NCBI RefSeq assembly: GCF_032854445.1
Contig: NC_088295.1
Span: forward strand, 51,015,385 to 51,079,384
Length of the DNA: 64,000 bases
Reading direction: 5' to 3'
Origin: Liolophura sinensis
Lineage: Eukaryota; Mollusca; Polyplacophora; Chitonida; Chitonidae
The notes under the pieces were generated by a model. It searched no databases. It was not told the DNA's origin and worked only from the letters and a program-made list of their open reading frames with translations. The translations under genes and the position numbers were made by a program. Shown one piece after another: positions 16,698 to 63,106 of this stretch (position 1 is its first letter; every line of letters starts with the position of its first letter).

Positions 16698-17290
16698 TCA
16701 CAGGCAGTGCTGGACCTCAATATCGCGCAGTGGACATCGTGTGGTTCGAGGGACTGGGAAGCCTGTTCTTTCTGATCGGGATTCTCGTGAAGTTTGAAGT
16801 TTTTCGTGTGTCCGCACGACATAGTCCACACAAGTCACTGATTCTGGGTGCACTGGATTTAGGCGGTGTGTTTCCAGCAACGGCTCTTCCGTGGATAATT
16901 CAGTCTGCAATACCATGTTATCATGTTCTTCACAGTACAGTGAATTTTCGCTGACATGCTTCGACACTTCGTTAATAGAAATGTTCCCAAGTTCAATTTG
17001 TGTTGAAATATTTGTCCTACGCCTGCTGATTGCGCTGTCTCTACGCGAGGTAAGATGTTCTTCTTTGTGAAGTGGATTCCAGATGTGTGCCCTTTCCGAG
17101 ACATTCATTTTTAACTTCCGACCCGATCTGCCATTTAAACGTAACACTGCTAGGCAGCATAGACTTGACAACACGCCTCCCGCACATATCACACACCAAA
17201 TCACTACATGGAGGAACTTAGGGATTCCCGAGTTTGCTGGGAGGACGGTTACATCGACAACTGTGATGTTCGGTGAAATCGAAACAGAAT
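16698..17290 (-). CDS. TNFR gene exon 4 (stalk, membrane span, cytoplasmic tail)
   Basis: The acceptor is CTCCAG and the split codon is G|AT (Asp). A Ser/Thr/Val-rich stalk is followed by a membrane span containing VVIWCVICAGGVL, a basic stop-transfer segment (RSGRKLK) and a polar tail ending at TGA 16698-16700. Confidence 0.88.
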
Positions 17291-20067: not shown

Positions 20068-20115
<48 letters not shown>

Positions 20116-28289: not shown

Positions 28290-28469
28290 TCAGGGCAGAC
28301 TGACATCATCTTCCTCATCCCCTTTGTTCATCCCTTGAAACAAAGTCCCCAGATTGACCCCTGTCTTATTGATTGCCATGACGGGCTTCATCGCTGACAT
28401 CATGCTGTTATAAAGGTGTGGGTGGAGTATTTCCTGAGACGCCAAGAGCTGCTTGATTCTGTGTCTCTC
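28290..28469 (-). CDS. Fusion gene exon 25 (last coding exon)
   Basis: Residues 1060-1118: ERHRIKQLLASQEILHPHLY, then MKPVMA and an acidic end GDEEDDVSLP, followed by TGA at 28290-28292. Confidence 0.92.
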   Translation of the reverse strand, partial: ERHRIKQLLASQEILHPHLYNSMMSAMKPVMAINKTGVNLGTLFQGMNKGDEEDDVSLP

Positions 28470-31400
28470 CTGACAACAAAACAACATGAAAACTGGCTTA
28501 GGATTAAGACATTCAGCTTACTGTCACAGTCCCTTCTAGAGAGATAATTCTAAGATCACTAATACTACTTTTAATACCTACATGTACATAGTATTGCTTC
28601 CAGAAAGATTGCTTTGGACGTTTAATCTAGGTAATGTTGTACAAGATTAAGTGAAGATAGCACGTGTACACTGTACATGTATGCTCTATGGAAGTCACTG
28701 AGCTCATCATCTGAGGACATAATTGGCAATAAGTGTCAGTGGCTTGCACAAAGACAAATCCATCATCCAAGCTTTCTTTTTTTGTCAGCAGTCTATATTT
28801 TTTACTATGATATTGCAAAGGGCATCCCTTTAGATCCAGCTTGTCCTGATGCTGCCACAGTTTTAGTAAGCCTCACAGGAATTCCATATCCTTTAGACCC
28901 ATTCCATTATATTCCACTAAGACCCAGCTCACCAGTTCTGTGTAAAAGAGGGGTGGGCATGGTGATGTCTTAGCTAGGTCGGGCCATTCTCACCATTCTG
29001 CTACTGCTATACAATATCTAGAACTGAAACACACAAACCTTTGGAGCCTCGAAACATGCTGGGCAATTCTCAGCTATTACTGGCAGTTTCTTCTGAAAGC
29101 AAAGAGGACACATTTTTAGCCATAAATAAATACATTTACTTTCTTTTCATTTCTCGTCAAACAATGTAAACAAGAACAAACAAGAGTGTGGCAAACACAA
29201 TGCATCACCAGATTTAACAACTTTGTGTGTATGAAATTCAGGCATTAAAACTAGCTATTTTCAGTTAGAAACAAGAAATCGGATCCACTGGATCCTAGTT
29301 TAATCAGGAAGAAATTTATCCCCATACTGAACCTGTATATGGCAAATCTGAAACACAATACTCTAATGGGATAACATAACTTGCAACCCTGTGACAGATA
29401 GTGCTTAAAAACAGTGCTAGCTACTCACTTATTTTTATAAATTTTACTAAAACATTTTAAAAACAGTCTGACAGCTTGAGCCGAAAGCTTGCCTGTGAAT
29501 TCTAAACAGTGCAGTTTTACGTCATTCTTTACTAGGTAACCAGTCATCAATGTTAATTGGGGAAGAGAAATGTGTGCAGGTATTTCTGAATTTCACACGG
29601 CATCACATTTGAGTATTGTGACTGACACGTTTACAAAAAAAGGTCGTGAAAAGTTACACGTGGAATCACTTACACCAACAGGAAAGAGTGCGATGTGAAT
29701 TATGCACTGGAGGATCTTTCATCTGTCATAATATCTTCATCTGGACATTGTCTTCACTTTTCAAAGCATTTGATTTATTTATTTATTTATTTGATTGGTG
29801 TTTTACGCCGTACTCAAGAATACTTTACTTATACGACGGCGGCCAGCATCGTGGTGGGTGGAAACTGGGAGGAGCCCGGGGGGAAACCCACGACCATCCG
29901 CAGGTTGCTGGCAGACCTTCCCATGTACGGCCGGAGAGGAAGCCAGCATGAGCTGGACTTGAACTCACAGCGACCGCATTGGTTAGAGACTCCTGGGTCA
30001 TTATGCTGTGCTAGCGCGATAACCAACTGAGCCACGGAGGCACCCAAAGCATTTGACATTTCAGGAATATTTTTAGGGTGTATTTTTATGATGTCTGGAA
30101 TTTACAGCATTCAACGTCATAATAAATCAAAGAAACAGCGATCATAATTTAGTTTACTGTCATACTTATTTAACTATTTCAAATGACTGACAGAAAAACT
30201 AAGGTTAATATATAATGAAAATGTGATACTGTCTAGAGAGATCTAGTAACACCCACCTCTGCTGCAAACTCCCGCAAGGCTTTCTCTCGTACATAAACAA
30301 ATGGACGAATGACTCTCAGATCTCCTTCCCTGAAACACACAAGTTTGTAGATTCAACAAACACTTCACCACAGAATGTAGCTGATTTAAACTGAACTTCA
30401 CCATGTACATGCAGCATACAGCTAGGAAGGCATTGGAATCAGAATTAGGCAAGAGTTCATGCACAACTGGTTTGATTGATTTTCCTGCTTGCTGTTAAAG
30501 CCTGACTTGTGAGTGGAGGAAATCCATTACATCTTACATGAACACGAAGCTAAAACAACAGCTCCTTTCTTAAAGCCCCAGCAAAGCCAGCAAGTGCTGA
30601 ATTTGAACTTTACGACTTCATTGTCAAGTGCCACAGGTAATAGATTTGTATGCCCCACCAAAAATCAGTCTGATCAGTCAGTGGAAGCCTTTTAAAGGAG
30701 AGATGAATTGTGTCCTACTTTCTACATTTGAGTAACAATGTTACAGTGGTTGACAGGTCTATGTAGCACAGCCATACCACTCGTGGTTGACAGGTCTATG
30801 TAGCACAGCGATACCACTCGTGGTTAACAGGTCTATGTAGCACAGCCATACCACTCGTGGTTGACAGGTCTCTGTAGCACAGAGATACCACTCGTGGTTG
30901 ACAGGTCTATGTAGCACAGCCATACCACTCGTGGTTGACAGGTCTATGTAGCACAGCCATACCACTCGTGGTTGACAGGTCTATGTAGCACAGCGATACC
31001 ACCCGTGGTTGACAGGTCTATGTAGTACAGCCATGCCACCGGTGGTTGATAGGTTTCTTTAGCACATCCATGCCACTGGTGGTTGACAGGTCTCTGTAGC
31101 ACAGCCATGCCACCGGTGGTTGACAGGTCTCTTCAGCACAGCCATGCCACCGGTGGTTGACAGGTCTCTGTAGCACCGGTGGTTGATAGGTTTCTGTAGT
31201 ACAGCCATGCCTCCGATGGTTGATAGGTCTCTGTAGCACAGCCATGTCACCGGTGGTTGATAGGTCTCTGTAGCACATCCATGCCACCAGTAGCTGACAG
31301 GTCTCTGTAGCACAGCCATGCCAACGGTGGTTGACAGGTCTTTGTAGCACCGGTGGTTGATAGGTTTCTGTAGCACCGGTGGTTGATAGGTTTCTGTAGT

Positions 31401-34400
31401 ACAGCCATGCCACCGGTGGTTGACAGGTCTCTGTAGCACCGGTGGTTGATAGGTTTCTGTAGCACAGCCATGCCACCGGTGGTTGACAGGTCTCTGCAGC
31501 ACCGGTGGTTGATAGGTTTCTGTAGCACAGCCATGCCACCGGTGGTTGACAGGTCTCTGTAGCACCGGTGGTTGATAGGTTTCTGTAGTACAGCCATGCC
31601 TCCGATGGTTGATAGGTCTCTGTAGCACAGCCATGTCATCGGTGGTTGATAGGTCTCTGTAGCACATCCATGCCACCAGTAGCTGACAAGTCTCTGTAGC
31701 ACAGCCATGCCAACGGTGGTTGACAGGTCTCTGTAGCACCGGTGGTTGATAGGTTTCTGTAGTACAGCCATGCCTCCGGTGGTTGATAGGCCTCTGTAGC
31801 ACAGCCATGCCAATGGTGGTTGACAGGTCTCTGTAGCACAGAGATGCCACTCGTCGTTGACTGGTTTCTGTAGCACAGCCATGCCACCGGTGGTTGACAG
31901 CTTTCTGTAGCACAGCCATGCCACCGGTGGTTGACAGGTCTATCTAGCACCGGCGGTTGATAGGTTTCTGTAGCACATCCATGCCACCGGAGGTTGATAG
32001 GTCTCTGTAGCACAGCGATACCACTGGTGGTTGATAGGCCTCTGTAGCACATCCATGCCACCCTTGTTTGACAGGTCTCTGTGGCACAGCCATGCCACCG
32101 GTGGTTGACAGGTCTCTGTAGCACCACAATACCACCCTTGTTTGACAGATCTATGAAAAAACTTATCCAAGGATCCAATTGTTTTTTAACTTGACTGAAT
32201 GGTACAAAAATAAGCCTGCACACAAAATACTATCAATGCTGGTAGACAATATCTGGAGCGATTAATGCATGGAAACCCAATGACCAATAGGAGTGAATTC
32301 ATTAAATGCCCAAAACTTAGCCATGCATTGGTCTGGTTTCAAATTTGATGTGGAGCTCCACAAAGTGAACCCAAATAAGAAGTTTTATTAAAGTGGGACA
32401 ATATTTGCAGGGAAACCAAAGCAATAGAGATGAACAAGGCAGACCAAAATTAACATCCTTCACCTAAACCAATTTTCTAATACACAACATATATATATAT
32501 ATATACTTACTGCACTGTATAGGATGCCTTCATAGTTCTTAGAATGCCATTATAGAAAAAAGACATGAGGAAACTGCAAATAGAAAACAGAATATACATA
32601 TTTAACTTATTTAGGGTCTAATACAATGTAGAAAGTAATGACAATAATAGCCAAACAAAGCCTACAAACAAATGGTGCTCTTACTTAATATATGTAGGAA
32701 TAACATATTGCACAAAATAACTATCAGAAATAATTACCTTTAACTGTTTGTCCCAATATTAAACTAAAATGTAAAACAAAGCTCTGTGAAGTAGAGTTAC
32801 CTGATGCCAGGTTGATGGATGATGGTAATCCCCAAATATACATACAGTGTACCTGACAAACCCCCTGACATCAACCCCCCTGACATCAAACCCCCTGACA
32901 TCAAACCCCAGACAAACCAGCCACATCTGGATTCAAGTCTGCCACCTCATTGGTCATTGTAAACAGCAACTTCAAGACAAGCATTGTACATCACTGAGTC
33001 TGCGAGGCATTTGTCAAGAACCACTAAGCTTGAGGGGAACCTTCATAGGTGTTGAATGTGGTTATCATGACAATCGCGCCAGTGGACAACTGTGTTCATC
33101 AAAAATAAAAACTTTATGCAGAAAACAGTTGGAGTTGTAGCCCGGACATGAAATTATATTTGTTTATATAGTTTATATAGGGGAAATGGCTATCTGGTTA
33201 CCATGACAACCGCTAAAATGGGCAAATGTGAGTCACGACACCTCGTAGTCTGTGTATCTATGTATCCACCAAAAATTAAAACTCTTGTCTGGAAAACAGT
33301 TTGAGCTATAGCTCGGAGACAAAATCATATTTATTGATATAGTATAGATAGGAAAATGACAATCTGGTAACTATGACAACTGCAAAAATGGACAAATGTG
33401 AATTATGGGACACATCATCATCTGTTTATTATGTATCCAACAAAAATGGAAACTCTATGCCGAAAAGAGTTGGAGTTATAGCCCAGACACGAAATCATGT
33501 CTGTTTCTATATAGAATATATAGGGAAACTGGCGATCTGGTAACCATGACAACCGCAGAAATGAACAAATGTGAGTCACGACACATCGTCATCCGTGTAT
33601 TTCTGTATCCACCAAAAATGTATCCACCATGGAAAACAATCGGAGATATAGCCTGGACACGAATACGGAGAGAAAAACTGACAAAATTACTACAGCATAA
33701 TACGCTCCTCCTAAGGGTGGGGGCATATAAAAAACCGTCCAAGATTACTGCTTTTACCTCTCTGCAAGGTCATCAAGATGCTGTCCGAGAGCTAAGACAT
33801 TGTATCCTTCTCTCCTGGCACAGGCATAAATACGACCTCGCTTCATACGGCTACAGAAACTACAAATAGAGGCACACTCATATGGCAACCCTGCAGCACT
33901 CTCTAAAATACCTGCAAAACATAACAAACACACCACGTTTCAGAACTGTCAACAATATCAGCAGACATCATTCACAAATAGACTGATCAATGTGTATATT
34001 TTATTGTAAAACATAATAGTGAGGAAGCATCACTATTTCACTTATCCTTACAGAATGGAAAATGAAAGTAAATTACAGTAGCATACATGTATCTTCAGTC
34101 TAATATCGTAGCAAGTATAACTGTTTTGTAATAATGTTTAACTGTTGAACCTATAACCTATAAATATAGATGAGAGCGGGACCTTAGTCTTGTGGGTAGA
34201 ACTGCTTGCTTTTCTATCGCTAAGACACACAAGCTGCAGCTTCATACCAAAGAAAAAATTGGTAAATTTAAGTGCTTTTTCTGCCTTTAGGACCATGGTG
34301 ACAATAAGTATGCACTGAAGACCGCTTATCCTCCACCAATATCGTGTTCATATCTGTACGCAGCATGTGAGAAAGTTCGCCAGTAAGCTGTCATACAACA

Positions 34401-37400
34401 GTGGTTTAACCCAGGTACTCCAGTTTTCCTCCCATATACAAAAATGACTACCATGGTGTAAGTGAAAAATTCATGATTATTGCTTTAAGCAACAATCAGA
34501 TAAATAAATAAACAATGGTATCATTTTACAAGCACAAACAATACCCATTCCAGGTCTGTACCAGAGCATAAATCTGACAGCTGCCAATGCTATTCACCTA
34601 TTCAAATACAGTAACTAAATGTCTGCCTTCAAAGCCCAGAGTTTGCCATATTCTGAATATACTGGCATGATAAAATATTGACCCTCCCGGAGTTACTTCC
34701 CCTTACAGTGCCCACCTTGAGACTCATAGAAATATGGAACCCCAAGAACTGCCAGGTAGTCTTTCAGAGGGCTGGGGTCATATGATGGGGTCTGGGGGTC
34801 CACAGTCACTGCTCCAAACTCAAAGTTCTTTCCCTGTAATCAGAGGAACATTTTCAGTTAAGACACATTATAACATTATAAGTTTCTTTCTCCTTTACTG
34901 CCAACAGTTCAGACAAAATGTATTCCTGTTAAAAAGTTTCCGACCTAAATCTTTCAACATCAAAGAAGATAAAATATGATCATGGCCTCACTGTCTCCAG
35001 CGTTTTAGCGTCAAAATAAAATTTCAATAAGATGTACTTAGGTAATCATATGTCTCAAATTCAGACATCTATTTAAAGAAAATAATATAAGACTGATCAA
35101 TTCCATTTGTTCCGTATTGTCAAACCATGGACAAACCTTGCTTCTGGCATAGAACTGGTACTGTCTGATGGTGTGTAGTAGAGAGAGGGAATCCTTTCCC
35201 CCGGACAGACAAACTAAGACACGGTCATTCACCCTCAGCATGCTGTACTCCTCTACTGCCTGGGGGCGGTGGAAAACAACAACACATGAACCAAAATCAG
35301 GGTACTCTGCCCAGTACCTGACAAACTGCAGCCTTTACTCTCCAGCTGAGCCAATAGGAGCTGGATGTAAACACTGAATTAGTAAGACCTTTTTTCATGC
35401 ATATTTTCTTTCAGTGGTTGGAAGTTTTAGGAAATAACATCAATGAACTTACTGGGTACAGCTGTACTGTTGATTACCACAACTGCCAGGTACTTAATTT
35501 TCGGAATGACAGTTGACACTTTCGGAAAAATGCTGAAAGTCATTTTTATGTCAGAAACAGGCTTTATGTATTTTTACATGTTAGGGCACCTCCTAAAATG
35601 CATACCGGTATTAAGAAATAAAAACCAAGCGTTTCATATATACTGTAAAAAAGTAAAACTTCATCAATAGTTTTAGATATACCTCCAGAAAGGGATTAAA
35701 TATCTTCTTCCCTGGACAATGCCACTTCAAAATCTTTGTTTTCTTTGCCTTTGGGTTTTCTTGATCTGTGATTTCTGAGGAAGTCTTCTTTGATTGGGAT
35801 ATCCTCTTTAATCTGGATGAACTGACTGTTTTAGATTTATCAGAGTCTACAGAGCCTCCTCCTGGAATATCCTTGTCTTTGTCTACAATACTTGAAACAG
35901 AAGTTAACTTACTTTCAGGACTGACCTCTAACATACTGCCAAGTGTCATTTTGGTTTCAGGCCCTGGGCTTAATCCTTGGCATGAGCTGGTCCTCTCATC
36001 CTGAAGCAGATCTGGCTCATTACCTTTTGTCATACTAGACATTTTTTGTGTCTCAGTTGTTACAAACATTGAAGTTCTGTCCTCACTTGAGACACAATCC
36101 GAATCAGGATTTTCATCCAACATAACACATTCTTGATTTTCAGTGAGTGACTCTGACACCTCTGGATCATCAGAAGCAATGCTGGAGAACCCACTCTGTA
36201 AAGTTTGTACCATTCCTGTCATGAAACTGACTTTATTTTTCAGAGAATGTGGAGAACTTGTCACCGAATCCAAAGCAGGCAAATCCTCCTGGATGAACTT
36301 TTTCTCATTTCCATCAACAGATAGAATAGTTTTAGGCTGCACACCAAATCTCTGACACAGTTTTGAGGGGCAAAAAGGTATCTGTGAACTCTGACAGCCA
36401 CCCTCTGAACTCTGACCTCTGTGACTGCTTTCTTGTGAACTTTGACCCCTCAGACACTGCTGTGCCTCACTGGGAAGAAGAAACCAGCGAAATGGCCTGG
36501 ATTCCTCATCAAATATCATGGTATAATCTGGTAGCTCTGGACAAGTCTGCTTGGACAAAAGAAGGCAAAACTTGACTTACGGCGATATCATCATGTTGTT
36601 GTTCGACTCAACATTTCACATGTTATTATGCTCAATATATTATTCAGATCTATGTCTTAATTAGCTTCAACACTCGTGTAACTGCTTTGATGTCGATGTC
36701 ACTTATCTGTATAAGTACATATGTTCACAGGAGGAGGGGGTACGTAGCATTACTTACAATGTGCCCAAGGGAAAGATGGGTGTGGGTGGGCGTCATCGTT
36801 AGGTTTATGTACAAAACGCGTCATCGTAAGATTTATGTATGCAACAAAAACCTGTGATGTAAAAGTAGCACAATACACTACGTCAGTGCTTATGGTAAAC
36901 CCAGCAAGGATGCAAAAAAATACCACGCAATACGAAATAACCCACAGCTATAGGAGCAAAACCAACACTCTGTATTTGTCAAGCACCTGACTGGTTTTTA
37001 CAGGTATTATTATGTACCTGTCATAGATAAAAACATGAGAGAATGGAGAACTCATAAAATTCCTTCCCGCCTGCATCAAGATGCTCCAAAGCGGTGAACT
37101 CATTTGTTTTCCCCTAATTATGTCCCGTTATAAGCCACTTGGACCTTCTGTGTAGCACATCCTCGAGTCTCTCATTAACCACCTACCTGATAGACTGTCT
37201 CACAAAGCTGCTTGGCCTGGTTCAAGCATTCCTGAAATCACAACATTAACGCATTGTATTTGACCTAACGTTAGACATGTGAAAAACTGGACTTCCTGAA
37301 GCTCATAAAGGCCTTACAATCATACTTTTGGTGCCAACACAAGAAATTTCTGATGAGAAATTGATCAAACTTTGCATGTGGCCCTGCATGGTGAAAGTAT

Positions 37401-52400: not shown

Positions 52401-55400
52401 ACACAAATACTGAGGACATTGTGCCACTGTGTCTACTGCAGGTATATGAACTATCCACACAAATACTGAGGACATTGTGCCACTGTGTCTACTGCATGTA
52501 CATGAACTATCCACAGAAATACTGAGGACATTGTGCCACTGTGTCTACTGCATGTATATGAACTATCCACACAAGTACTGACGACATTGTGCCACTGTGT
52601 CTACTGCATGTACATGAACTATCCACACAAGTACTGACGACATTGTGCCACTGTGTCTACTGCATGTACATGAACTATCCACACAAATACTGACGACATT
52701 GTGCCACTGTGTCTACTGCATGTACATGAACTATCCACACAAATACTGACGACATTGTGCCACTGTGTCTACTGCATGTACATGAACTATCCACACAAAT
52801 ACTGAGGACATTGTGCCCTTGTGTCTACTGCATGTACATGGACTATCCACACAAATACTGAGGACATTGTGCCACTGTGTCTACTGCAGGTATATGAACT
52901 ATCCACACAAATACTGACGACATTGTGTCCCTGTGTCTACTGCATGTACATGAACTATCCACACAAATACTGACGACATTGTGCCACTGTGTCTACTGCA
53001 GGTATATGAACTATCCACACAAATACTGACGACATTGTGCCACTGTGTCTACTGCATGTACATGAACCATCCACACAAATACTGATGACATTGTGCCACT
53101 GTGTCTACTGCATGTACATGGACTATCCACAAAAATACTGACGACACTGTGCCACTGTGTCTACTGCATGTACATGGACTATCCACAGAAATACTGAGGA
53201 CATTGTGCCACTGTGTCTACTGCATGTACATGGACTATCCACAGAAATACTGAGGACACTGTGCCACTGTGTCTACTGCATGTACATGGACTATCCACAG
53301 AAATACTGAGGACATTGTGCCACTGTGTCTACTGCATGTACATGAACCATCCACACAAATACTGACGACATTGTGCCACTGTGTCTACTGCATGTACATG
53401 AACTATCCACACAAATACTGACGACATTGTGCCACTGTGTCTACTGCATGTACATGAACTATCCACACAAATACTGACGACATTGTGCCACTGTGTCTAC
53501 TGCATGTACATGAACTATCCACACAAACACTGACGACATTGTGCCACTGTGTCTACTGCATGTACATGGACTATCCACACAAATACTGACGACATTGTGC
53601 CACTGTGTCTACTGCATGTACATGGACTATCCACACAAATACTGAGGACATTGTGCCACTGTGTCTACTGCATGTACATGAACTATCCACACAAATACTG
53701 AGGACATTGTGCCACTGTGTCTACTGCATGTACATGGACTATCCACACAAATACTGAGGACATTGTGCCCTTGTGTCTACTGCATGTACATGGACTATCC
53801 ACACAAATACTGACGACATTGTGCCACTGTGTCTACTGCATGTACATGAACTATCCACACAAATACTGACGACATTGTGCCACTGTGTCTACTGCATGTA
53901 CATGGACTATCCACAAAAATACTGACGACACTGTGCCACTGTGTCTACTGCGTGTACATGAACTATGCACACAAATATTGACGACACTGTGCCACTGTGT
54001 CTACTGCATGTACATGGACCATCCACACAAATACTGACGACACTGTGCCACTGTGTCTACTGCATGTATATGAACTATCCACACAAATACTGACGACATT
54101 GTGCCACTGTGTCTACTGCATGTACATGGACTATCCACACAAATACTGACGACATTGTGCCACTGTGTCTACTGCATGTACATGGACCATCCACACAAAT
54201 ACTGAAGACACTGTGCCACTGTGTCTACTGCATGTACATGAACTATCCACACAAATACTGACGACATTGTGCCACTGTGTCTACTGCATGTACATGAACT
54301 ATCCACACAAATATTGAATCTGCACATACAAATGATTTGTGATTGTAGCCTGGGCATTAAAGCATTTTGGAAAATGGCAATTTGCTTGCCATAGAATTAG
54401 GTCTGCTGGCAACGGTACTTTGTGACACAGCATCTGCACGAATTACATCTAACCACAAAAAGTGAGGTACATTGAATATACAGGCCAAACAAGAGGTAAA
54501 AGACAACCGCTCACCATAACATAAAACAACCCACTTTTGCAAGGACATATAAAACTTTAAATAGCAGAATTTGTGTGGTGTTTTTTAAGCTTCCAAGCCA
54601 AAAGCCTTTATTGTTCTTCTTCTAATTATTTAATTATTCTTCCCGGCTGTGAGCGTAATGCTGTATCTTTCATGCGTTAGGCATTGACAACTTGCTATGT
54701 CTTCTAAAGAGACAAAGGCCAGCTAAATATAGGTGAGCCAGGGACAATACAAAACTAATCAAGGGTTACTATCTACCGTTGCCTGTATGATGTTACAGTG
54801 GGTGACAGTGAAGAATTGTATCTGATTTTCCTTCCAAATGAAAACTGTGGTGCTCTGATGATATGTTCAGAACAAATATATGTTGGATCATCCCAGTTTT
54901 AAGCTTACTTTAAAGATATTTTACATTATACAGTGAATTAGTACCACAAAACATTGCGACAGCCCTCCTATTGCCCTAGCTTCCTAAAGTCAAGAGCAAC
55001 ACCCTCCAAAGAGCATTATACAGTCTCACAGTTGGGAAGAGATGAATATGTCGCTTGGTTGGAAACAGTTGCTGTAACCAAAGGCAGAAAATTTTACCGT
55101 TGAAATGCTTTTTTTCTTCTCACATATAACTTTTTTAATCTAAACAAATTGAGAAAAACAGAAAAGACAACTGAGCTTCACGCACCTAGATCTGATTGGA
55201 TTCATGTCAACTCTGACGTAAGGGGCAGCTGTGGCGTAATCCCAGAATGCAAGAGCTCCATGGCGATGAAGGCACTCTGTCACAGAGTCAACATCTGTTA
55301 AAATTCCAGTAATGTTTGATGCAGCAGAAAAACAGCCAATCAACTGTTTTCCACTGGGCTGCCACTTCTGGAAATCAGCCAGAAAGTAACATTAGCATGG

Positions 55401-58400
55401 TTTAACCCTATGTTTTAAAAGTTCTGGGATGTAAAAAAAAAACAGATTCTTTTACAAAGCATATTCTGACAGTTTTATCATAGAGGGTAAATGCCTCTTT
55501 TAAACAGAATATTGCTTCTTTAAGAAATTGAGTTACAATAAAAGATAGTGAGTTTCACTGTGTTTTCTTTAGAAGGGGTACAATACAAGGGGGACAACCT
55601 ATACAACCATAGATTAACCATTTTTAAGTTTAAGTTTAAATTCAGGTTAGTTACATTCACATGGTGTTATTCGCCAAATCGTATATGAAATAGCATTTGT
55701 CCCGTTTCCATTCCACCTGGCAAATTTGACACGTCGATACAAAAAAACTACAACATACACTAGTAAATGTTGCTTAAAAATTTTTCATATCAAGAAATCT
55801 GCACCTAGTATGCTGAAAATGGATATAATGTGCAACTTGTGAGGGTGTTCATAGTTACCCGAAGTTCTGTGATCAAGTGGTCCAGGCTTATCTGTCCGAA
55901 TTCATCCTCACGTATCTGCACCACCTAGACGTACAACAAAGTCATGACATTAGTTTTTTGTTTATGATTTGCTACCAATCACAGGCCACACTTCAATGTA
56001 GCTGAACTTTCTCTCAAGCATCACTGTGGTTCTTCAATACAGGCCATAAAGTTTACTGAACAATAAGGGGGGTAAGCGTGCATGATGTCATGAGCTGTTG
56101 TACAGTTAGTGAAAGGTCAGAAGTTCACTGAACAACAAGGAGGGTAAGCGTGCATGATGTCATGAGCCCTTGTACAGTTAGTGAAAGGTCAGAAGTTCAC
56201 TGAACAACAAGAGGGGTAAGCGAGCATGATGTCATGAGCTGTTGTACAGTTAGTGAAAGGTCAGAAGTTCACTGAACAACAAGGGGGGTAAGCGTGCATG
56301 ATGTCATGAGCTGTTGTACAGTTAGTGAAAGGTCAGAAGTTACTGAACAACAAGGAGGGTAAGCATGCATGATGTCATGAGCTCTTGTACAGTTAGTGAA
56401 AGGCCAGAAATTACTGAACAACAAGGGGGGTAAGCATGCATGATGTCATGAGCCCTTGTACAGTTAGTGAAAGGTCAGAAGTTACTGAACAACAAGGAGA
56501 GTAAGCATGCATGATGTCATGAGCTCTTGTACAATTAGTGAAAGGTCAGAAGTTACATGTATTTGTATCAGACAGAGATTGTTTACTTAAAGGGCTACTT
56601 TGGTGTCAAAACATCTGTGTCTTAAAAGCAAGGTGAACTGATAAAGACTGGGATGGTCTGAATTGCTCTCCTAAATTGTGAAAATATTGCAGTGAATTAA
56701 AACTAATATTGTACACTTCATCAAAGTATACGGAAACAAAGTATTTTTGCTCCTTCCACTTTGCCTGGTGTGACGTCACCCAGGAAAACATGACGTCATC
56801 AATCGATGACGTATATCCACAAATGACGATGCCCTTTCAAACGCTCTTGACATCATCCCAGGATAAATGTGTTAATTAATGTCACATCTGCCTGATTCGA
56901 CATCATACAGGGAATACTACCACGTCACATCAGGAAAATTTTACCGACACAGCCGAAGATATTGTTTTTCAAGGAATCTTCAGTTATATGGGTTAAATAG
57001 TGTTATGCATCAAAATCCCACTGAAAGATAGTGTTAGGCTTACTCCGAAGGATTTCTTTCATACCATTGTAATATTTCTACCCAATTTGTATTCTGACCA
57101 AAGAATAATTAAAACTGATACCCCCAAAATGCCTCAGTCAAGTAGTTTGAAAATGTCAACTGGATTTTGAAAATCTGGATATCGTTGATGCCCTAGTAAC
57201 ATTTGTTTGGTCTTCTTTATTCATAATAACAAGGTGACATGAAGTCACAGTTACTTCAATATAAAAAGAAATCTCTTTTGGCGTCGTACTAATTTGCCCA
57301 GTTATGGACAGCAAAAGCAAATGATTGAGTTCAGATATGTCAATTCAACAGAACAGAAAACTGAGAGACTATATAGGAGAATGATGCCAATTTGCAGTTT
57401 ACACAGTTCAAACTGAACTTTCTGAATATTTCTTCCAATACGCGACAAAGCCCTTTCAGAAAAATCTTTTTGTTTTTAGGCAATAATTAATTTTCTCAGT
57501 ACAGTAGTTCCATTTTGGTCGTTACGCCAAAACAGAAATAGTAAGTTAAATCTTCCACCCATTAAGGTGAGATATTTGAATAAAAAAAGCCATGTGTACA
57601 ACATCAAAGGCATTCATAAGTAAATACCAACATTTGCTCCGTATTCTCGCCAAGGTAACAAAATAGAATGGTGTTCATAGGGTCCTACAAATACCACCTG
57701 TAACATAAAGAAGAAGTACAGTGTTAGTGGACCATTTTAAGTAAAACGTTTCATATAACTTTATAGAGCCATATACAATTACAGTGTTAACCATTTGGGT
57801 GAAAGCTCAACTGTATTTATTTATTTACTTGATTGGTGTTTTACTCCGTACTCAAGAATATTTCACTTTTGCGACGTTGGCCAGGATTACAATGGGAGGA
57901 AACCAAGCAGAGCCCCGGGTAAACCCACGACCATCCGCAGGTTGCTGGCAGACCTTCCCAGGTATGGCCGGAGAGGAAGCCAGCACGAGCTGGACTTAAA
58001 CTCACAGCAACCACATTGGTGAGAGGCTCCTGGGTCATTACGCTGCACTAACGCTCTAACCCCAAAAGCTCAACTGTACAATCCAGACGTAATACCACCA
58101 GTCCTTCTGTTGACTGGATAATCAAGAGCCTTCTAACTACAGGAGAGATCACATCACATTTCATGTCAAAGTAGTGTAAATCTACGATCATTCCTTCAGT
58201 CATTCTGACATAACTGATCCTTTAACAACTGGTCTATCAAATCACAAATAATCTGAGAAACAAATGTACCACTGTCAATAAATGTTAAAATGGCTTTTAA
58301 CATTTAAGATTTTGAGTATTTCTTGAGGATTTGAGACAATGACAATACTATTATGAGATAAAATAAATTTGTAAATCTTCCTTACATTTTGACTCCATGT

Positions 58401-61400
58401 CTCTCCCAAGTATCTCTTACACATATACACGCAGGAATTAGACAATATGGTGCAAACAAAATGCACGATGAGCCTGACAAACAACCTTACATGTACGAAA
58501 TATTGTCATCAAGTTAATGTTTTCACCATTATTTGTTAACCAGAAAAGTTGTCTTACAGGCGGCTCTGGTAGTTTTAACCCATGAATGATCTTGTGCACC
58601 GCGCCCGTACACCCACTGCCGACAAATATCACTGCGTCATGTTCACTGGCATTCACAGCACTCCGTACTATATCTCTGAAAATAAAACAGAAATCAAACA
58701 TCACATTGGACAAGTTTGTTGTTTGGTTTGCTTGGAATTTGCTGTTACTTTTTAACATTACTGTGATCATAAAAAGACTGTGTATGCTCACCATATACAG
58801 AGCACTTAACCTACCAAAAAGGCTATCTACAGAGCACTTAACCTACCAAAAATGACATCTGAGCAAGTCACAACATTCTAACAGCCGGCCTTCCAGGACC
58901 TGACCTTTCACCTTTTCATCTAAGGTGCAAACAGTGTTCATTCTAAGAACAAAATTTTGTGCGCATGCGAGGTAAAGAAAATTTTGTGAAACTTAATAAA
59001 TCCTAAAAGTGACCACACAAACCAATGTAAATCTATACCTGAAGAAGATGACTCAATTGTCAATGGGAGACTTGAGGACGAACTACACAGAAGGTACAAA
59101 TGACAGAAGAGCACGTTTTCTTCTGTGAGGCTGCAGTGCATGTGTACTTCATACATGTTTTATGAGCACATATACACTGATAATTATGACGTAATAAAGA
59201 TAAGAACCTGAGCTCACAGCTTTGGACCGTCTTGGTACAGGCGGGAAGGAGTTTTACAAGTTCCCCATTAAAGCTCAGTCAGGTTTAAAAAGGTCTCTGA
59301 TTCGAAAAACTATTTACCTCTTTTATTTTACCTTATTTCAAGTCTGCAGACTGGTCACACTGGTGGATGTGTCAGTGTTACCTACCTGGTCTCATGTCGG
59401 TATAGTAGTGTCCGTAGACTGGTCACACTGATGGTTGTGACAGTGTTGTCTGTACACTAGTCACACTGGCGGTCGTGACAGAGCCTCATGTCTGTACAGT
59501 GTTGCCTGTAGACTGGTCACACTGGTGGTTGTGTCAGTGTTACCTACCTGGTATCATGTCTATACAGTGTTGTCTGTAGACTGGTCACACTGGTGCTTGT
59601 GTCAGTGTTACCTACCTGGCCTCATGTCTGTACAGTGTTGTTTGTAGACTAGTCACACTGGTGGTTGTGTCAGTGTTACCTACCTGGCCTCATGTGTGTA
59701 CAGTGTTGTCTGTAGACTGGTCACACTGGTCGTTGTGTCAGTGTTACCTACCTGGCCTCATGTCTGTACAGTGTTGTCTGTAGACTGGTCACACTGGTGG
59801 TTATGTCAGTGTTACCTACCTGGCCTCGTGTCTGTACAGTGTTGTCTGTAGACTGGTCACACCGGTGGTTGTGTCAGTGTTACCTACCTGGCCTCATGTC
59901 TGTACAGTGTTGTCTGTAGACTGGTCACATGGGTGGTTGTGTTAGTGTTACCTACCTGGCCTCGTGTCTGTACAGTGTTGTCTGTAGACTGGTCACACTG
60001 GTCGTTGTGTCAGTTTTACCTTCCTGGTCTCATGTCTGTACAGTGTTGTCTGTAGACTGGTCACACTGGTGCTTGTGACAGTGGTACCTACCTGGCCTCA
60101 TGTCTGTACAGTGTTGTCTGTAGACTGGTCACACTGGTGGTTGTGACAGTGTTACCTACCTGGCCTCATGTCTGTACAGTGTTGTCTGTAGACTGGTCAC
60201 ACTGGTGGTTGTGTCAGTGTTACCTACCTGGCCTCATGTCTGTACAGTGTTGTCTGTAGACTGGTCACACTGGTTGTTGTGTGAGTGTTCCCGTATTCTG
60301 GTAATACTTCGGATCGGATAAAGTCTTCTATGAATGATAAGCTTCTGGAAAAGACAGGTCAGGTCATTGGCATTAATGATCACAATTCAGGATTAAACCT
60401 TAAAAGAAAATACACCTCTCAGAGTAGTTATACTGGACATGAAAGTGTGCCTCATATAGTCCCTCAAGAAAAAGCATAAAGTCTGGTGATTTTACACGAA
60501 AGTACAAGCTACCAACGATAGAAGCCAAGCAAAAGTGCTGTACCTCTATCAGGGTAGTCATATTTTAAACCTATAATGATATCTGCAGATTGTTAGTTAA
60601 TGAGAGAGTAGAATTGTGGGAAATCTCATTAAGCCACTGATTTATTAGTGCCCAAAAGTGTACATTAGTCTAGAAGCCAACATGAAGTAGACAAGATTAA
60701 TCCGAAAATCTATTGAAATCTATGCAGTAGTACCTCCAGAGCTCAGAATGAAACATACACCATTATTACTCGTTTACACAAAAAAATTATGAATATGACC
60801 TACAACCAAAAGAAACCTTACAGTTTCAAAGTGAACATCTTTTGATTTATTTCTTCATTTGATTGGTATTTTAGGGCGTATTCAAGAATATTTCACTTTA
60901 AATATGCAACAGCAGCCAGCATTATGGTGGGGGGAAACCCACAACCATCCATAGGTTTCTGGCAAATCTCCTCACATACCAACATCTTCTGAGCTTTTCC
61001 TTCTCTTTCAATCTCCCGCTTATAAAGTTACACTAGCAGAAGTTGATAAACATAATATTTCTGAAACACACGCTCAAACTAAAAACAGCACATAGCTTCA
61101 ATACAACATTTTACAAGGAAAGCATGTACCTGCAAGGAATACAGCTTTAAAAAATAAATTTTACTAATACAATTAGGGTATGATTACTAATAGCAATAAA
61201 ATATATCCCACAAATCGTTCTATCACATACCTTCCTGAGGCTGTATAGTCCATGTACATCACTACAAAAAATATTCAAAATGTGAAAGATAGCAGTAAAA
61301 GTAGAATGTACAATCCATACAAAAAGCTAAAATACATTATTCACATTCATGGTCACGAATGCAAAGACATGGTGCTGATTTTTAAAAAATCTGCATTACT

Positions 61401-63106
61401 TAGTACGAACCCTGAATGAGAATGATCGGATTCATTATACTTCACCAGTGCAAATTATTTAATTTTTCCAATGGTGGCAAATTAGTTTAGTGCATTACTT
61501 TCATATTGTTTTCTTATTTGACATTCAATTGGGCCTTGATGCTTAGCCACCGGTATCGCTGTAAGGAACATAACAGCTTTAATTTGAATTTTTTATTTGA
61601 TTTCATGGGATGAAACTGGACAGAACCCAGAGAAAACCCACAACCATTCTCAGGTTGTTGCCAGACCTTCCCACATACAACTGGAAAGGAAGCCAGAATG
61701 AGCTGGAGTTGAACTCATGGCAGTCACACTGGTAAGAGGCTCCTGGGTTAGCATGCTGCACTAGCACACTAAACACCAGGTCACGAATAGATGTCCCAAT
61801 AAAGGAATATGTATATGTCGGGATAACTGTGGGCAGCTATAGATATACAACCAAGGAATGGGGACTGTAAATGAACATCTGAACAGCCAACAAACTACAA
61901 GGACAGCAACCTTAATTGTCATTACTGGTACAATTTACAAAAGCTGTGGAATGTAACTCTGTGTATCAAGTAACACCAAGTGTTGAGAGAGTTACGGGGA
62001 ATAACTGCTTCTAATGTGTCGGATCGATGTACGCCACATTTACCCCATATTCACACACGCATTAAATCTTCCCTAGTGTAAATCGATGTCAACTGAGTGA
62101 TACCCATAATCAACTAATCTGTTCTGAGTCTCGCTGAACGAAAAACGATCCATGACAACTGCACAAATTCACAAAATAAATACATTTTCAGACGCTACAC
62201 CCACTGTGGCCGTAAGCCGTCTGTCACCATTGGGATCACTTGTGAGAAGAAACAAGGCTTAAGCAATAAGCGCCATCCGACGACAGGGGGAGTGAACCAG
62301 CCAAACGGACAATCAGACTTGCCTAGTGTTACTATAATGACTGCCAAAGGCATTATCTCCCTTCAACGACCTTATTTTTTTTTTTCTGTACTCACATCGA
62401 TCACGCAACTCGTATGTATGACTATCAGAATGGGATGGTGGCCACAGTGCGTATAGTGTCTGACAATGTATTTATTTTGTAAAGTTGTATTGTTGTCATG
62501 GATCGTTTTTGGTTCAGCGAGACTCAGAACAAACTAGTTGATTGCACCTGGGGACCACTTGGTTGACATCCATTTACGATAAGAAAGATTTAATGCGCGT
62601 GTAAAGATGCGGTAGATATGGCTTATCCCCGATATGCCATATTAAAAGCAGTTATCCTCCGTAATTCTCCCAACACTCTGTGTTGGTCGATACAGACTGT
62701 TACATTCCGCAACTAAATTTACAACTGCCCAACAGGTGTAAATTTTCGTTCACTGTCGACAAAAAAAGAAACAACCGAGTACTTCCAAATTCGTGAATAC
62801 GGCCTTAAACAGCAATGAATCAAAGAATCAATCTTCTACTTTCTATTTACGAAAACTGGGTCCTTAATGACAGACTCATAACCATTGTGATTTATGTGAA
62901 GTCAAACCTTTCCTTGGTCCAAAAGGTCCATTGAAAACCTTGTCCTTCCCAATGACACTTTCTGATACTAACTGAAGCAGCCCAGTGACATCTGATGAAT
63001 AATTTCGTAATGATTTTTTATGATCTAATTCTTGAGGAAGAGCATAAAATTTTCTGTTTCTAGCAGCCTGCTGGCTGCCATTTTCACGTGGCCTGTTCAC
63101 GTCCAT
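28290..63106 (-). CDS. Cysteine desulfurase-like / TtcA-like PP-loop fusion protein (25 exons, 1118 aa)
   Basis: Twenty-five GT-AG exons join without a phase break into 3357 nt. Residues about 1-450 form a class V PLP aminotransferase of the NifS/SufS type. It has the YMDYTASGR start, GNTHTT at 95-100, the SGCTG loop at 136-140, EHH at 163-165, PLP-ring Asp242 in FWDYATAAPY, PLP lysine 277 in SVHKFVGG, and RGGCACAGPY at 420-429 carrying the candidate persulfide cysteines 423 and 425. Residues 450-575 are an extension and 576-864 a Ser-rich disordered linker encoded by one exon. Residues 865-1118 form a TtcA-like ATPase with SGGKDS at 883-888, CSFC at 961-964, GQHLDD, LRVIRP and a later CPAC at 1051-1054. 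In E. coli, TtcA is an Fe-S enzyme that thiolates C32 of tRNA using sulfur from IscS. The fusion would combine donor and acceptor; this function is inferred. No targeting peptide is evident. Confidence 0.9.
29039..29092 (-). CDS. Fusion gene exon 24
   Basis: Residues 1042-1059: LPVIAENCPACFEAPK. Cys1051 is the likely third Fe-S ligand by comparison with TtcA Cys222. Confidence 0.92.
29768..30045 (-). mobile_element. SINE family A, full length
   Basis: Minus-strand copy from the (TTTA)n tail through ATTGGTGTTTTACGCCGTAC to the head GAGCCACGGAGGC, in intron 23 of the fusion gene. Confidence 0.9.
30257..30329 (-). CDS. Fusion gene exon 23
   Basis: Residues 1017-1041: EGDLRVIRPFVYVREKALRE, a TtcA-type RPL/FxYVRE motif. 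The donor is GTGGGT. Confidence 0.93.
30749..32150. repeat. Minisatellite of mixed 37-bp and 26-bp units
   Basis: About 40 units. The full 37-bp unit contains GGTTGACAGGTCTCTGTAGC and ACAGCCATGCCACCGGT; the 26-bp form lacks 11 internal bases. It lies in intron 22 of the fusion gene and yields long stop-free minus-strand frames. Confidence 0.92.
32488..32505. repeat. (TA)n microsatellite at a splice donor
   Basis: About nine TA units that overlap the end of the GTAAGTATAT donor of fusion exon 22. Confidence 0.9.
32511..32573 (-). CDS. Fusion gene exon 22
   Basis: Residues 996-1016: SFLMSFFYNGILRTMKASYT. The donor GTAAGT runs directly into a (TA)n tract. Confidence 0.9.
32860..32915. repeat. 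Short repeat (CCCCCTGACATCAAA)n
   Basis: About four units of roughly 15 bp, in intron 21 of the fusion gene. Confidence 0.8.
33056..33665. repeat. Satellite-like tandem repeat, about 170-bp units
   Basis: Three to four diverged units marked by GGTAACCATGACAACCGC (33196, 33366 and 33538), with GTGAGTCACGACACATCG and GTATCCACCAAAAAT. Intron 21 of the fusion gene. Confidence 0.75.
33758..33911 (-). CDS. Fusion gene exon 21 (CxxC motif)
   Basis: Residues 945-995, with CASICSFCSRMKRGRIYACA and LALGQHLDDLAE. Cys961 and Cys964 match the TtcA CxxC Fe-S ligands; GQHLDD matches the TtcA GHHxDD site. Confidence 0.95.
34165..34515 (+). mobile_element. SINE-like element
   Basis: GGGACCTTAGTCTTGTGGGT at the 5' end and ATGGTGTAAGTGAAAAATTC, then CAATCAGATAAATAAATAAA at the 3' end recall a SINE body and tail, but the sequence differs from family A. 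Single copy in this window. Confidence 0.5.
34716..34833 (-). CDS. Fusion gene exon 20
   Basis: Residues 906-944: FEFGAVTVDPQTPSYDPSPL, then KDYLAVLGVPYFYES. This corresponds to the second strand-helix unit of the PP-loop fold. Confidence 0.92.
35137..35259 (-). CDS. Fusion gene exon 19 (PP-loop SGGKDS)
   Basis: Residues 865-905: YSMLRVNDRVLVCLSGGKDS, then LSLLHTIRQYQF. SGGKDS is the ATP-pyrophosphatase loop of N-type PP-loop enzymes. Confidence 0.95.
35683..36549 (-). CDS. Fusion gene exon 18 (disordered linker, 867 nt)
   Basis: Residues 576-864. It opens with CPELPDYTMIFDEESRPFRW, then runs Ser/Glu/Gln-rich with GQSSQESSHRGQSSEGGCQS, and ends KKTKILKWHCPGKKIFNPF. No fold is visible. It is by far the longest exon and joins the two enzyme modules. 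The acceptor AAGCAG is a NAGNAG tandem, so one Gln may be optional. Confidence 0.9.
37187..37231 (-). CDS. Fusion gene exon 17 (45 nt)
   Basis: Residues 561-575: ECLNQAKQLCETVYQ. The acceptor is TTTCAG and the donor is GTAGGT. Confidence 0.85.
37808..37912 (-). CDS. Fusion gene exon 16
   Basis: Residues 526-560: LFRDRKWLGHISYSS, then MTYKDPFTLRGQLPQNLQ. GT-AG boundaries, phase 0. Confidence 0.88.
38976..39023 (-). CDS. Fusion gene exon 15
   Basis: Residues 510-525: YMFNPQTGEWRARNHQ. Phase 0 on both sides, donor GTAAGT. Confidence 0.88.
39101..39405 (-). mobile_element. SINE family B
   Basis: Minus-strand copy beside the foldback element at 39433. Confidence 0.8.
39433..40196. mobile_element. 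Foldback-type element with long inverted arms
   Basis: The left arm (39433-39588) has three GGGTTCACCTTTATTGTAAA subrepeats followed by GATAAAAATCTATGTAACCT. The right arm (39997-40196) is the inverse complement, with five subrepeats. The 400-bp middle has no coding potential. No clear target-site duplication was seen. Confidence 0.75.
40568..40745 (+). mobile_element. SINE family A, 5'-truncated
   Basis: Body from TTCCTCTCCGGCCGTAAGTG to (AAAT)n; the tail is followed by further AAATAA/AAATTACCCA duplications to 40815. Confidence 0.85.
40844..40955 (-). CDS. Fusion gene exon 14
   Basis: Residues 472-509: PGFTRINLPYFITDEELDFV, then IQAVQIVATEGWKLLPK. This is the C-terminal helical part of the aminotransferase module. 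Confidence 0.9.
42750..42890 (-). repeat. 59-bp tandem duplication overlapping the exon 13 donor
   Basis: The 3' part of exon 13, its GTATGT donor and following intron bases are repeated 59 bp downstream, and a third partial copy follows after another 59 bp. Confidence 0.85.
42843..42902 (-). CDS. Fusion gene exon 13
   Basis: Residues 452-471: RLDRIHLRRYTEYSDREIL. A second copy of its 3' end and donor lies 59 bp downstream. Confidence 0.88.
43761..43822 (-). CDS. Fusion gene exon 12
   Basis: Residues 432-451: ALLGIDEELAQKYEELLAED. The acceptor is CTGCCAG and the donor is GTAAGT. Confidence 0.88.
44330..45600. repeat. Diverged tandem duplication, about 600 bp per copy
   Basis: 44330-44960 and 44990-45600 align through TATGCAAAT, CGCTGGAGTG, GATTGGCTGA, ACTCAGCTGA, GATGTGGAAAGCTT and AGATAAGTGATTGCA. 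Both copies lie in intron 11 of the fusion gene. Confidence 0.75.
45950..46390. repeat. Degenerate tandem repeat of about 60-65 bp
   Basis: Units share AATATACAAGAG, an A-rich run, AGCTTAACC and TTCAATC. About six weak copies, in intron 11 of the fusion gene. Confidence 0.6.
46828..47105 (-). mobile_element. SINE family A, full length
   Basis: Minus-strand copy with the (TTTA)n tail at 46828 and a tRNA-like head near 47100, in intron 11 of the fusion gene. Confidence 0.9.
47244..47448 (-). CDS. Fusion gene exon 11 (candidate catalytic cysteines)
   Basis: Residues 363-431, with RLPIFSFVV, LLHHNFISAVLNDVFGIQAR and GGCACAGPYAQ. Cys423 and Cys425 lie where desulfurases of this class carry the persulfide cysteine. 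Confidence 0.92.
48514..48671 (-). CDS. Fusion gene exon 10
   Basis: Residues 311-362: RYLQEPELREEAGTPDIVGS, then IRAGMVLQLKEAIG and REEELC. EAGTPDI is a conserved class V motif of this family. Confidence 0.92.
48932..49195 (-). mobile_element. SINE family A, full length
   Basis: Minus-strand copy with a small deletion between body and box B, in intron 9 of the fusion gene. Confidence 0.88.
49357..49430 (-). CDS. Fusion gene exon 9
   Basis: Residues 286-310: VLVAKKSLFQNPVPEGCGGG then SVFF. The donor is GTAAGT. Confidence 0.9.
49657..49733 (-). CDS. Fusion gene exon 8 (PLP lysine)
   Basis: Residues 260-285, with KDAVFMSVHKFVGGVSTPG. Lys277 in SVHKF is the expected Schiff-base lysine. It is separated from exon 7 by 5.4 kb, mostly a 56-bp array. 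Confidence 0.92.
49947..54312. repeat. 56-bp minisatellite, about 78 copies (4.4 kb)
   Basis: Highly uniform units contain ACATTGTGCCACTGTGTCTA, CTGCATGTACATG and CTATCCACACAAATACTGA. Variants (ACGACATT/AGGACATT/ACGACACT, GAACT/GGACT) are clustered in blocks. The array fills most of intron 7 of the fusion gene. Confidence 0.95.
55186..55367 (-). CDS. Fusion gene exon 7 (PLP aspartate)
   Basis: Residues 200-259, with CFSAASNITG and FWDYATAAPYVRVDMNP. Asp242 should contact the PLP ring nitrogen. The donor is GTGCGT. Confidence 0.92.
55859..55924 (-). CDS. Fusion gene exon 6
   Basis: Residues 178-199: VVQIREDEFGQISLDHLITE then LR. GT-AG boundaries, phase 0 on both sides. Confidence 0.9.
56046..56560. 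repeat. 72-bp tandem repeat, 7 copies
   Basis: Units of 71-72 bp contain GGTAAGCGTGCATGATGTCA and TTGTACAGTTAGTGAAAGGT. They lie in intron 5 of the fusion gene. Confidence 0.9.
57632..57697 (-). CDS. Fusion gene exon 5 (EHH motif)
   Basis: Residues 156-177: VVFVGPYEHHSILLPWREYG. The EHH histidine is the family position that stacks on the PLP ring. Flanking introns are phase 0. Confidence 0.9.
57812..58065 (-). mobile_element. SINE family A
   Basis: Minus-strand copy from the tail TTTATTTACTTGATTGG to the head region, in intron 4 of the fusion gene. Confidence 0.85.
58558..58675 (-). CDS. Fusion gene exon 4 (PLP phosphate loop)
   Basis: Residues 116-155: DIVRSAVNASEHDAVIFVG then SGCTGAVHK. 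The acceptor is TTTCAG and the donor is GTAAGA. Confidence 0.92.
59342..60290 (-). repeat. 68-bp tandem array derived from exon 3 and its donor, about 14 copies
   Basis: On the minus strand each unit reads as the last 62 bases of fusion exon 3 (ACCAGTGTGACCAGTCTACA ... GAGGCCAG) plus GTAGGT. It starts within the exon itself and extends about 0.9 kb into intron 3. Confidence 0.92.
60228..60344 (-). CDS. Fusion gene exon 3 (GNTHTT motif)
   Basis: Residues 77-115: SLSFIEDFI, then EVLPEYGNTHTTTSVT and ending YRHEAR. The donor CAG|GTAGGT is immediately followed by a 68-bp tandem array that copies this exon's 3' end and donor. Confidence 0.9.
60844..60980 (-). mobile_element. SINE family A, 3' fragment
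   Basis: Tail and part of the body only (TTTGATTGGTATTTTAGGGC, CAGCCAGCATTATGGTGGG), in intron 2 of the fusion gene. Confidence 0.7.
61231..61261 (-). CDS. Fusion gene exon 2 (31 nt)
   Basis: Encodes VMYMDYTASGR with both ends split. Its phase matches exons 1 and 3. The motif is conserved in class V aminotransferases of this group. Confidence 0.85.
61600..61775 (-). mobile_element. SINE family A, diverged 5' part
   Basis: Recognisable by CCCACAACCATTCTCAGGTT, the box B region and TGAGAGGC-like sequence in reverse. The tail is lost. Confidence 0.65.
62908..63106 (-). CDS. Fusion gene exon 1
   Basis: Residues 1-66, starting MDVNRPRENG and ending GPFGPRK, the usual N-terminus before the conserved DYTASG motif. 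The frame stays open upstream to 63316 but is low complexity there, so I chose the ATG at 63104-63106. The donor is GTTTGA. Confidence 0.75.

Follow-up and report, generated by a model that had tools for sequence, protein, structure and literature searches.

An animal gene predicted to join a desulfurase-like PLP domain to a TtcA-like tRNA thiolase domain

The gene and its surroundings

The window (the whole stretch of DNA analysed here, 64,000 nucleotides) lies at 51.0 Mb on a contig of a 609-Mb assembly of 632 contigs. Between 63106 and 28290, its minus strand carries one spliced gene, assembled from minus-strand frames, whose ATG lies at 63106 and whose stop codon ends at 28290. Candidate exons were taken from the minus-strand reading frames, their borders were then inspected and the gene was then assembled; the small exon 14 was recovered by a constrained search. 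The resulting model comprises 22 exons with a coding sequence of 3144 nt for 1047 amino acids, in which the sole stop codon is the terminal one. All of the introns (21/21) are of the GT-AG type and their phases are all compatible. Splice-site support is weakest at the exon 5 donor (GTTGGT) and the exon 8 acceptor, and cDNA could still shift exon borders of the 22-exon model. The exons are as follows:

Exon 1, 62908..63106, minus strand: start codon at 63106; aa 1-66; GT donor, phase kept
Exon 2, 61231..61261, minus strand: YMDYTASGR, a block conserved in bacteria
Exon 3, 60228..60344, minus strand: HTT motif; a 68-bp tandem array has its first unit at the 3' end of this exon
Exon 4, 58558..58675, minus strand: GSGCTG
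Exon 5, 57632..57697, minus strand: EHH; weak donor GTTGGT
Exon 6, 55859..55924, minus strand: part of the gene model
Exon 7, 55186..55367, minus strand: WDYATAAPY, with D242
Exon 8, 49657..49733, minus strand: SVHK, with K277 as the PLP lysine; the acceptor may be off by a few codons
Exon 9, 49357..49430, minus strand: part of the gene model
Exon 10, 48514..48671, minus strand: part of the gene model
Exon 11, 47244..47448, minus strand: GGCACAGPY, with C423 and C425
Exon 12, 43761..43822, minus strand: part of the gene model
Exon 13, 40844..40955, minus strand: FTRINLPYF
Exon 14, 38976..39023, minus strand: YMFNPQTGEW
Exon 15, 35683..36546, minus strand: 288 codons; class V tail RWFLLP, Ser-rich linker and start of the TtcA domain (WHCPGKK)
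Exon 16, 35137..35259, minus strand: PP-loop SGGKDS
Exon 17, 34716..34833, minus strand: part of the gene model
Exon 18, 33758..33911, minus strand: CSFC (C890/C893) and GQHLDD
Exon 19, 32511..32573, minus strand: part of the gene model
Exon 20, 30257..30329, minus strand: RVIRP
Exon 21, 29039..29092, minus strand: CPAC, with C980/C983
Exon 22, 28290..28469, minus strand: ends in the stop codon

A first-pass annotation of this DNA had proposed a minus-strand gene between 63106 and 28290 with a set of enzyme motifs in one spliced frame, and all of these are present: its six motifs of at least five residues were each found on the minus strand, and HTT, EHH and SVHK were placed in the spliced protein. 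The N-terminal motifs start at aa 98 (HTT), 135 (GSGCTG), 163 (EHH), 241 (WDYATAAPY), 274 (SVHK) and 421 (GGCACAGPY), the C-terminal ones at aa 812 (SGGKDS), 890 (CSFC), 916 (GQHLDD), 951 (RVIRP) and 980 (CPAC). The 25 exons counted at that time were too many, since the model needs only 22. The protein is collinear with bacterial class V and TtcA proteins without a missing block, and therefore no further exons are called for.

In a search of the animal's own genome, the 8 matches listed for the TtcA part and the 16 listed for the class V part all lie within the locus described here, and the gene is single copy, for relatives of these domains, as far as the search reaches. The Aminotran_5 profile has six matches elsewhere in the genome, which are more distant class V proteins. 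The Pfam ATP_bind_3 profile gave no match in the own genome although the gene is present, as its short exons fall below the model; short exons may likewise escape the NcsA model in the same genome, and we do not claim an absence of CTU1.

Several repeats were observed in the window. A 68-bp minisatellite (59483-60289, 11.9 copies, 93% matches) starts within exon 3, and its unit combines the last part of coding exon 3 with the splice donor. There are ten copies of the donor string CAGGTAGGT in it, the real donor included, and only the first exon 3 donor keeps the frame, because an in-frame stop follows just after it. A 56-bp tandem array (49947-54317, approximately 78 copies, 96% matches) makes up most of intron 7, and a 37-bp-based array of approximately 40 copies in intron 19 (30746-32152) gives rise to spurious long open frames on the minus strand. 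A dispersed repeat, recognizable in translation by NLRMVVG or a neighbouring frame, is found on both strands in about ten places (around 62, 15304, 25661, 26238, 29907, 40608, 46965, 49060, 57944 and 61656) and is possibly a SINE-type element.

Beside the gene, a minus-strand open frame at 20038-20514 contains cysteine-rich repeats of the TNFR/NGFR type in three stretches (Pfam E 1.4e-23), which fits an animal origin of the window. The frame at 16701-17315 shows a hydrophobic stretch by eye and no Pfam match; there may be a TNF-receptor-like gene in this region. Bacterial contamination was considered and rejected in view of the 21 introns, a contig that extends past 51 Mb and the frame with TNFR cysteine-rich repeats.

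Two enzyme domains in one chain

The N-terminal part of the protein matches Pfam Aminotran_5 over aa 69-433 (E = 7.1e-38, above the cut-off), and the PLP lysine, the His and the Asp of a class V domain are all present. The closest solved structures, in single-sequence as well as in profile searches, are SufS-type cysteine desulfurases, and the Cys of RAGHHCA in 8d8s, 7e6d and 5j8q has its counterpart in C425. The NCBIfam SufS model (TIGR01979) is matched with 127 bits, below its cut-off of 475.1. The first-pass annotation had placed a persulfide on Cys423/425; the numbering of both residues holds, but the residue aligned with the catalytic Cys of SufS is C425 and not C423. The latter is an additional Cys, likewise kept in 86/86 bacterial relatives.

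Relatives of the class V domain occur on plasmid records (up to 48% identity) and, among the best 80 of at least 584 genome matches, in bacteria of several phyla (up to 53% identity by tblastn). The 86 class V loci compared here are six plasmid loci and these best 80 of at least 584 relatives from a scan of bacterial and archaeal genomes, the 80 having been chosen by a GPYEHHS-type or a Y[AM]D..SGR-type pattern. H98, H164, H165, D242, K277, R420, C423 and C425 are each conserved in 86/86 loci, a count that is biased by this choice for the two His of EHH and unbiased for the Cys. In a seven-row alignment, the animal domain is collinear with the bacterial proteins at 41-50% identity.

No characterised member of this bacterial subfamily was found, and no neighbour family is conserved across the 86 loci: the largest cluster beyond the gene itself covers 8 loci, with four clusters (47-86 of 86 loci) being taken as the class V gene in several frames. 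Transporter genes lie directly upstream in two of the six plasmid contexts, and an Lrp-type regulator is present in two of the six. In one plasmid context with ABC transporter genes upstream, a gene for L-2-amino-thiazoline-4-carboxylate hydrolase, an enzyme that leads to cysteine, is found two genes on from the class V relative. Among viral contigs there was one distant relative of the class V part (30% identity) and none of the TtcA part.

The C-terminal part matches Pfam ATP_bind_3 (aa 807-976, E = 9.8e-12, above the cut-off) and the NCBIfam TtcA model NF007972 (aa 771-1023, E = 5.5e-57, 193.3 bits, below the equivalog cut-off of 272), with weaker matches to TtuA (4.3e-10) and NcsA (2.8e-6). 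The PP-loop SGGKDS typical of the TtcA family lies at aa 812-817, and CSFC (890-893) and CPAC (980-983) align with the Cys columns of E. coli TtcA (L107). The earlier description of this part as TtcA-like is thus sustained by the TtcA match at E 5.5e-57, with the restriction that the domain belongs to a divergent subclade and not to canonical TtcA (193 bits against 272). Three bacterial members of this subclade also score under the TtcA cut-off (195.9-224.6 bits).

The identity to the animal domain is approximately 34% for E. coli TtcA and reaches 36% for TtcA relatives on plasmids, among the matches listed. Of the genomes belonging to the 80 class V genome loci, 40 were searched, and 18 of these 40 carriers of the class V gene have a TtcA-type match (best 36%). 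In the phylum of genome G031, such a match is present in 127/188 genomes (best 38%), and in the phylum of genome G019, 2/398 genomes pass E 1e-40, with 54% and 51% identity. The divergent subclade itself was detected in 49/300 genomes of one order of Pseudomonadota, to which the better of these two genomes belongs, with 48-59% identity at a threshold of E 1e-45. A tree of 41 sequences unites the animal domain with the 12 subclade rows, to the exclusion of every other row, at 100/100 support; the tree program marks two long branches, the animal row and L106, and cautions that joins of this kind may be spurious. The identity values (48-59% to the subclade versus 34-38% to other TtcA proteins) agree with the tree in siding the animal domain with the subclade, and the animal domain, L105 and L106 share blocks that are absent from the canonical rows, for example GD.RVIRP and ENCPAC. 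Canonical TtcA as the nearest relative is not favoured, since the tree places the animal domain in the subclade, albeit as a flagged long branch.

The subclade stands in for canonical TtcA in the hosts tested. We searched 32 genomes of the order with E. coli TtcA, half of them from the 49 carriers and half from the 251 non-carriers. Each of the 16 carriers has exactly one TtcA-type match, which is the subclade gene (35-41% identity to E. coli TtcA), whereas 15/16 non-carriers have one canonical TtcA (48-77%) and 1/16 has none. The gene order methyltransferase (presumably MidA-like), short-chain dehydrogenase, ttcA and class V aminotransferase is shared by L130, where ttcA is the subclade gene, and L140, where it is the canonical one, which looks like an in-place replacement of one tRNA modification enzyme by the other. 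For neighbour counts, the L130 proteins were used as queries, and the canonical loci were shorter (2.7-3.8 kb). In 4/11 subclade loci (L122, L124, L128 and L130 itself), the dehydrogenase lies within 120 bp and the methyltransferase is present as well; L129 has a more distant set of the shared neighbours and 6/11 have none of them. Among canonical loci, 4/10 have the dehydrogenase (56-68% identity) within 200 bp and two of these four the methyltransferase, too. Since both types are mutually exclusive in the sample and can occupy the same place, we infer that the subclade does the same job as canonical TtcA, which would be the synthesis of s2C32.

The connection between both domains is provided by exon 15. 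It starts a little ahead of the class V tail (RWFLLP) and extends as far as the N-terminal part of the TtcA-like domain, the start of which (WHCPGKK...FLE) is continued in exon 16 (AVEEYSML...SGGKDS). The open reading frame containing exon 15 has 321 codons, and no other in the window is as long, even in the repeat arrays; given how often stops occur in the non-exonic sequence, the chance of 288 open codons is approximately 2e-8. That the tail belongs to the class V domain can be judged from the bacterial relatives: an RWF..P-like motif (for example LRWFLLP in L013) is present at the tail of the full open frames in 77/86 of them, compared to 51/1720 shuffled tails, and RWF..P itself stands there in 3/6 bacterial proteins of the seven-row alignment. 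In the 86-row alignment of local matches, 80 rows stop short of the RWF..P column. The 289-aa linker of the first-pass annotation corresponds to exon 15 as a whole (288 codons); the linker proper, by the domain borders, spans approximately aa 537-768 (232 aa). This segment contains 20% Ser, and order-promoting residues make up 24% of it versus 38% in both enzyme domains.

As exon 15 by itself covers the class V tail, the Ser-rich linker and the beginning of the TtcA domain, a physical fusion of the class V and TtcA-like domains in one chain is strongly favoured from the gene model. It is very improbable that two neighbouring genes have been joined on paper only. Such a reading can point to the genomic DNA on which the model rests and to the unrelated bacterial relatives of the two halves, but conserved residues of both domains lie inside the single 288-codon open frame of exon 15 and the phases match across both introns flanking it. 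We rejected the split-gene reading because exon 15 spans both domains. The earlier view of a desulfurase-like N-terminus and a TtcA-like C-terminus in one gene, with catalytic residues kept, is borne out by profile matches and alignments.

Origin of the fusion and a proposed sulfur relay

The fusion was probably formed in a eukaryote out of two genes of bacterial type, as the bacterial relatives of the two halves differ and were not found adjacent to each other. At E ≤ 1e-3, there is no TtcA relative in the 86 class V loci (approximately 3.5-13.5 kb) and no relative of the animal class V domain in 51 TtcA-bearing loci, and the first-found two genomes with the closest, subclade-type TtcA contain weak class V matches only. 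A bacterial operon or fusion of the two parts was considered, and none was seen in these 86 and 51 loci. Another class V enzyme (Aminotran_5, E 1.4e-24) adjoins the subclade TtcA in L122, L129 and L130 and canonical TtcA in L134 and L140. We take it as unrelated to the animal fusion, because the animal domain misses all of these enzymes by tblastn. Our view of the origin rests on one animal sequence. A krill transcript with daily cycling has been annotated as TtcA (PMC3714250); it is a lead only.

We consider it fairly probable that this one nuclear animal gene encodes a two-enzyme tRNA thiolase with a sulfur relay in one chain, and we rank the relay as the likeliest reading of the sequence. 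In a first step, the class V domain, with a Schiff base on K277 and with H164 and D242, would take the sulfur of L-cysteine onto C425 in persulfide form, in the manner of SufS. In a second step, the flexible Ser-rich linker of approximately 230 aa would let the C425 loop reach the C-terminal domain. There, a tRNA cytidine would be adenylated at C2 by the PP-loop SGGKDS, and the sulfur would be taken up and passed on by a [4Fe-4S] cluster bound to C890, C893 and C983. The product would be 2-thiocytidine, most likely at tRNA position 32. The first of these steps is deduced from the conserved residues and the third from TtcA; the second is likewise proposed.

The assignment of the cluster ligands follows from described TtcA proteins, in which three Cys from two CXXC motifs hold the [4Fe-4S] cluster (PMC5372739). 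For P. aeruginosa TtcA, C115, C118 and C206 have been named as putative Fe-S ligands (PMC6082896), and C890, C893 and C983 of the animal protein, aligned to E. coli TtcA, match the ligand positions in the two CxxC motifs. For s2C32 in E. coli, the enzyme set tabulated in a review is IscS plus TtcA (PMC5372739). A layout in one chain is workable, as an engineered MnmA-YrvO chain of thiolase and desulfurase has been described to function in living cells, namely in Plasmodium apicoplasts (PMC10219651). Doubts about the relay come from the TtcA score below the cut-off, the lack of a bacterial precedent for the partnership in the loci seen, the 6/11 subclade loci without shared neighbours and the long branch in the tree.

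Other readings accept the fusion and differ in what its parts do. The class V domain might serve the Fe-S cluster of the TtcA domain, by building or repairing it, or other sulfur users, instead of acting as the direct donor for tRNA, and we regard this as unlikely. Cytosolic supply of Fe-S clusters in animals differs from that in bacteria. TtcA needs an oxygen-sensitive [4Fe-4S] cluster (PMC5372739, PMC6082896), and sulfur from bacterial IscS is described as first going to IscU for cluster assembly (PMC5372739). However, one desulfurase per TtcA chain would be an odd way to feed a single cluster, and the IscS plus TtcA set for s2C32 (PMC5372739) is compatible with either reading. A comparably small probability applies to a C-terminal domain that thiolates another position or base, as in the s2U33 that occurs in trypanosomatids (PMC5372739), or a mitochondrial tRNA. 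The divergent subclade does score under the TtcA cut-off and s2C32 is described as so far found in Archaea and Bacteria (PMC6082896); on the other hand, the match to TtcA (5.5e-57) is far ahead of those to TtuA (4.3e-10) and NcsA (2.8e-6), and the mutual exclusion with canonical TtcA in the tested bacteria, with a partly shared locus, argues for the usual target.

Still less likely is a class V domain that works as a different PLP enzyme, such as a C-S lyase, a selenocysteine lyase or an enzyme of amino-acid catabolism, which would couple thiolation to the amino-acid status with no transfer of sulfur. The subfamily is unlike SufS (127 bits, with the cut-off at 475), and the plasmid contexts with transporter genes directly upstream (2/6) or an Lrp-type regulator (2/6) would suit such a role. 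Yet the best solved matches are cysteine desulfurases, C425 stands in the desulfurase Cys register and is conserved in 86/86 relatives, and one relative lies two genes from the hydrolase that leads to cysteine.

Significance and comparison with known systems

If the relay is correct, some animals would keep a self-contained thiolation enzyme of bacterial type, which makes its own persulfide from cysteine and forms 2-thiocytidine in tRNA, bypassing the NFS1 route of mitochondria and the URM1 route. We propose this wider conclusion tentatively, as quite possible. It would amount to a tRNA modification and a sulfur route that we found described for no animal; a search of the open-licence literature gave no account of a desulfurase-TtcA fusion or of s2C in animal tRNA, and databases may well contain unnamed entries with this architecture. 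In a review, s2C32 is listed for bacteria and archaea (PMC5372739), and a functional TtcA in an animal would extend the set of modifications of animal tRNA. The same review names the reaction mechanism of Fe-S tRNA thiolases as an open question (PMC5372739). As the putative sulfur donor and its acceptor lie in a single chain open to expression and mutagenesis, the protein would be a compact system for studying this mechanism. Here, a putative TtcA-type thiolase of the kind best known from bacteria is encoded by an animal gene, with a putative sulfur donor attached.

Compared to TtcA of E. coli and P. aeruginosa, the animal protein has the same PP-loop SGGKDS, central CxxC, second CxxC and VIRP block. 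It differs in being only about 34% identical to the E. coli protein, under the NCBI cut-off and in a separate clade, in being fused to a PLP enzyme and in its occurrence in an animal. The likeness to the TtcA-like subclade of Pseudomonadota is closer (48-59% identity, common signature blocks, 100/100 grouping), but no fusion partner was seen there and no relative of the animal class V domain in the loci examined.

With desulfurases of the SufS/CsdA type, the N-terminal domain shares the class V fold match and the PLP Lys, His, Asp and Cys in register, whereas its GGC[AS]CA motif, its extra C-terminal FTRINLPYF...TGEW...RWF and its score (127 bits versus 475) set it apart. Bacterial proteins known as aminotransferase class V-fold PLP-dependent enzymes are more similar, with up to 53% identity over approximately 450 aa and the tail motif in 77/86, although they are neither fused to nor beside TtcA in 86 loci. 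A functional parallel is offered by YrvO and MnmA of B. subtilis. Their genes are separate, 31 bp apart (PMC10219651), and the thiolase is of another, Fe-S independent type (PMC5372739), but there, too, a dedicated desulfurase is described to feed a tRNA thiolase, in this case for s2U34 (PMC10219651).
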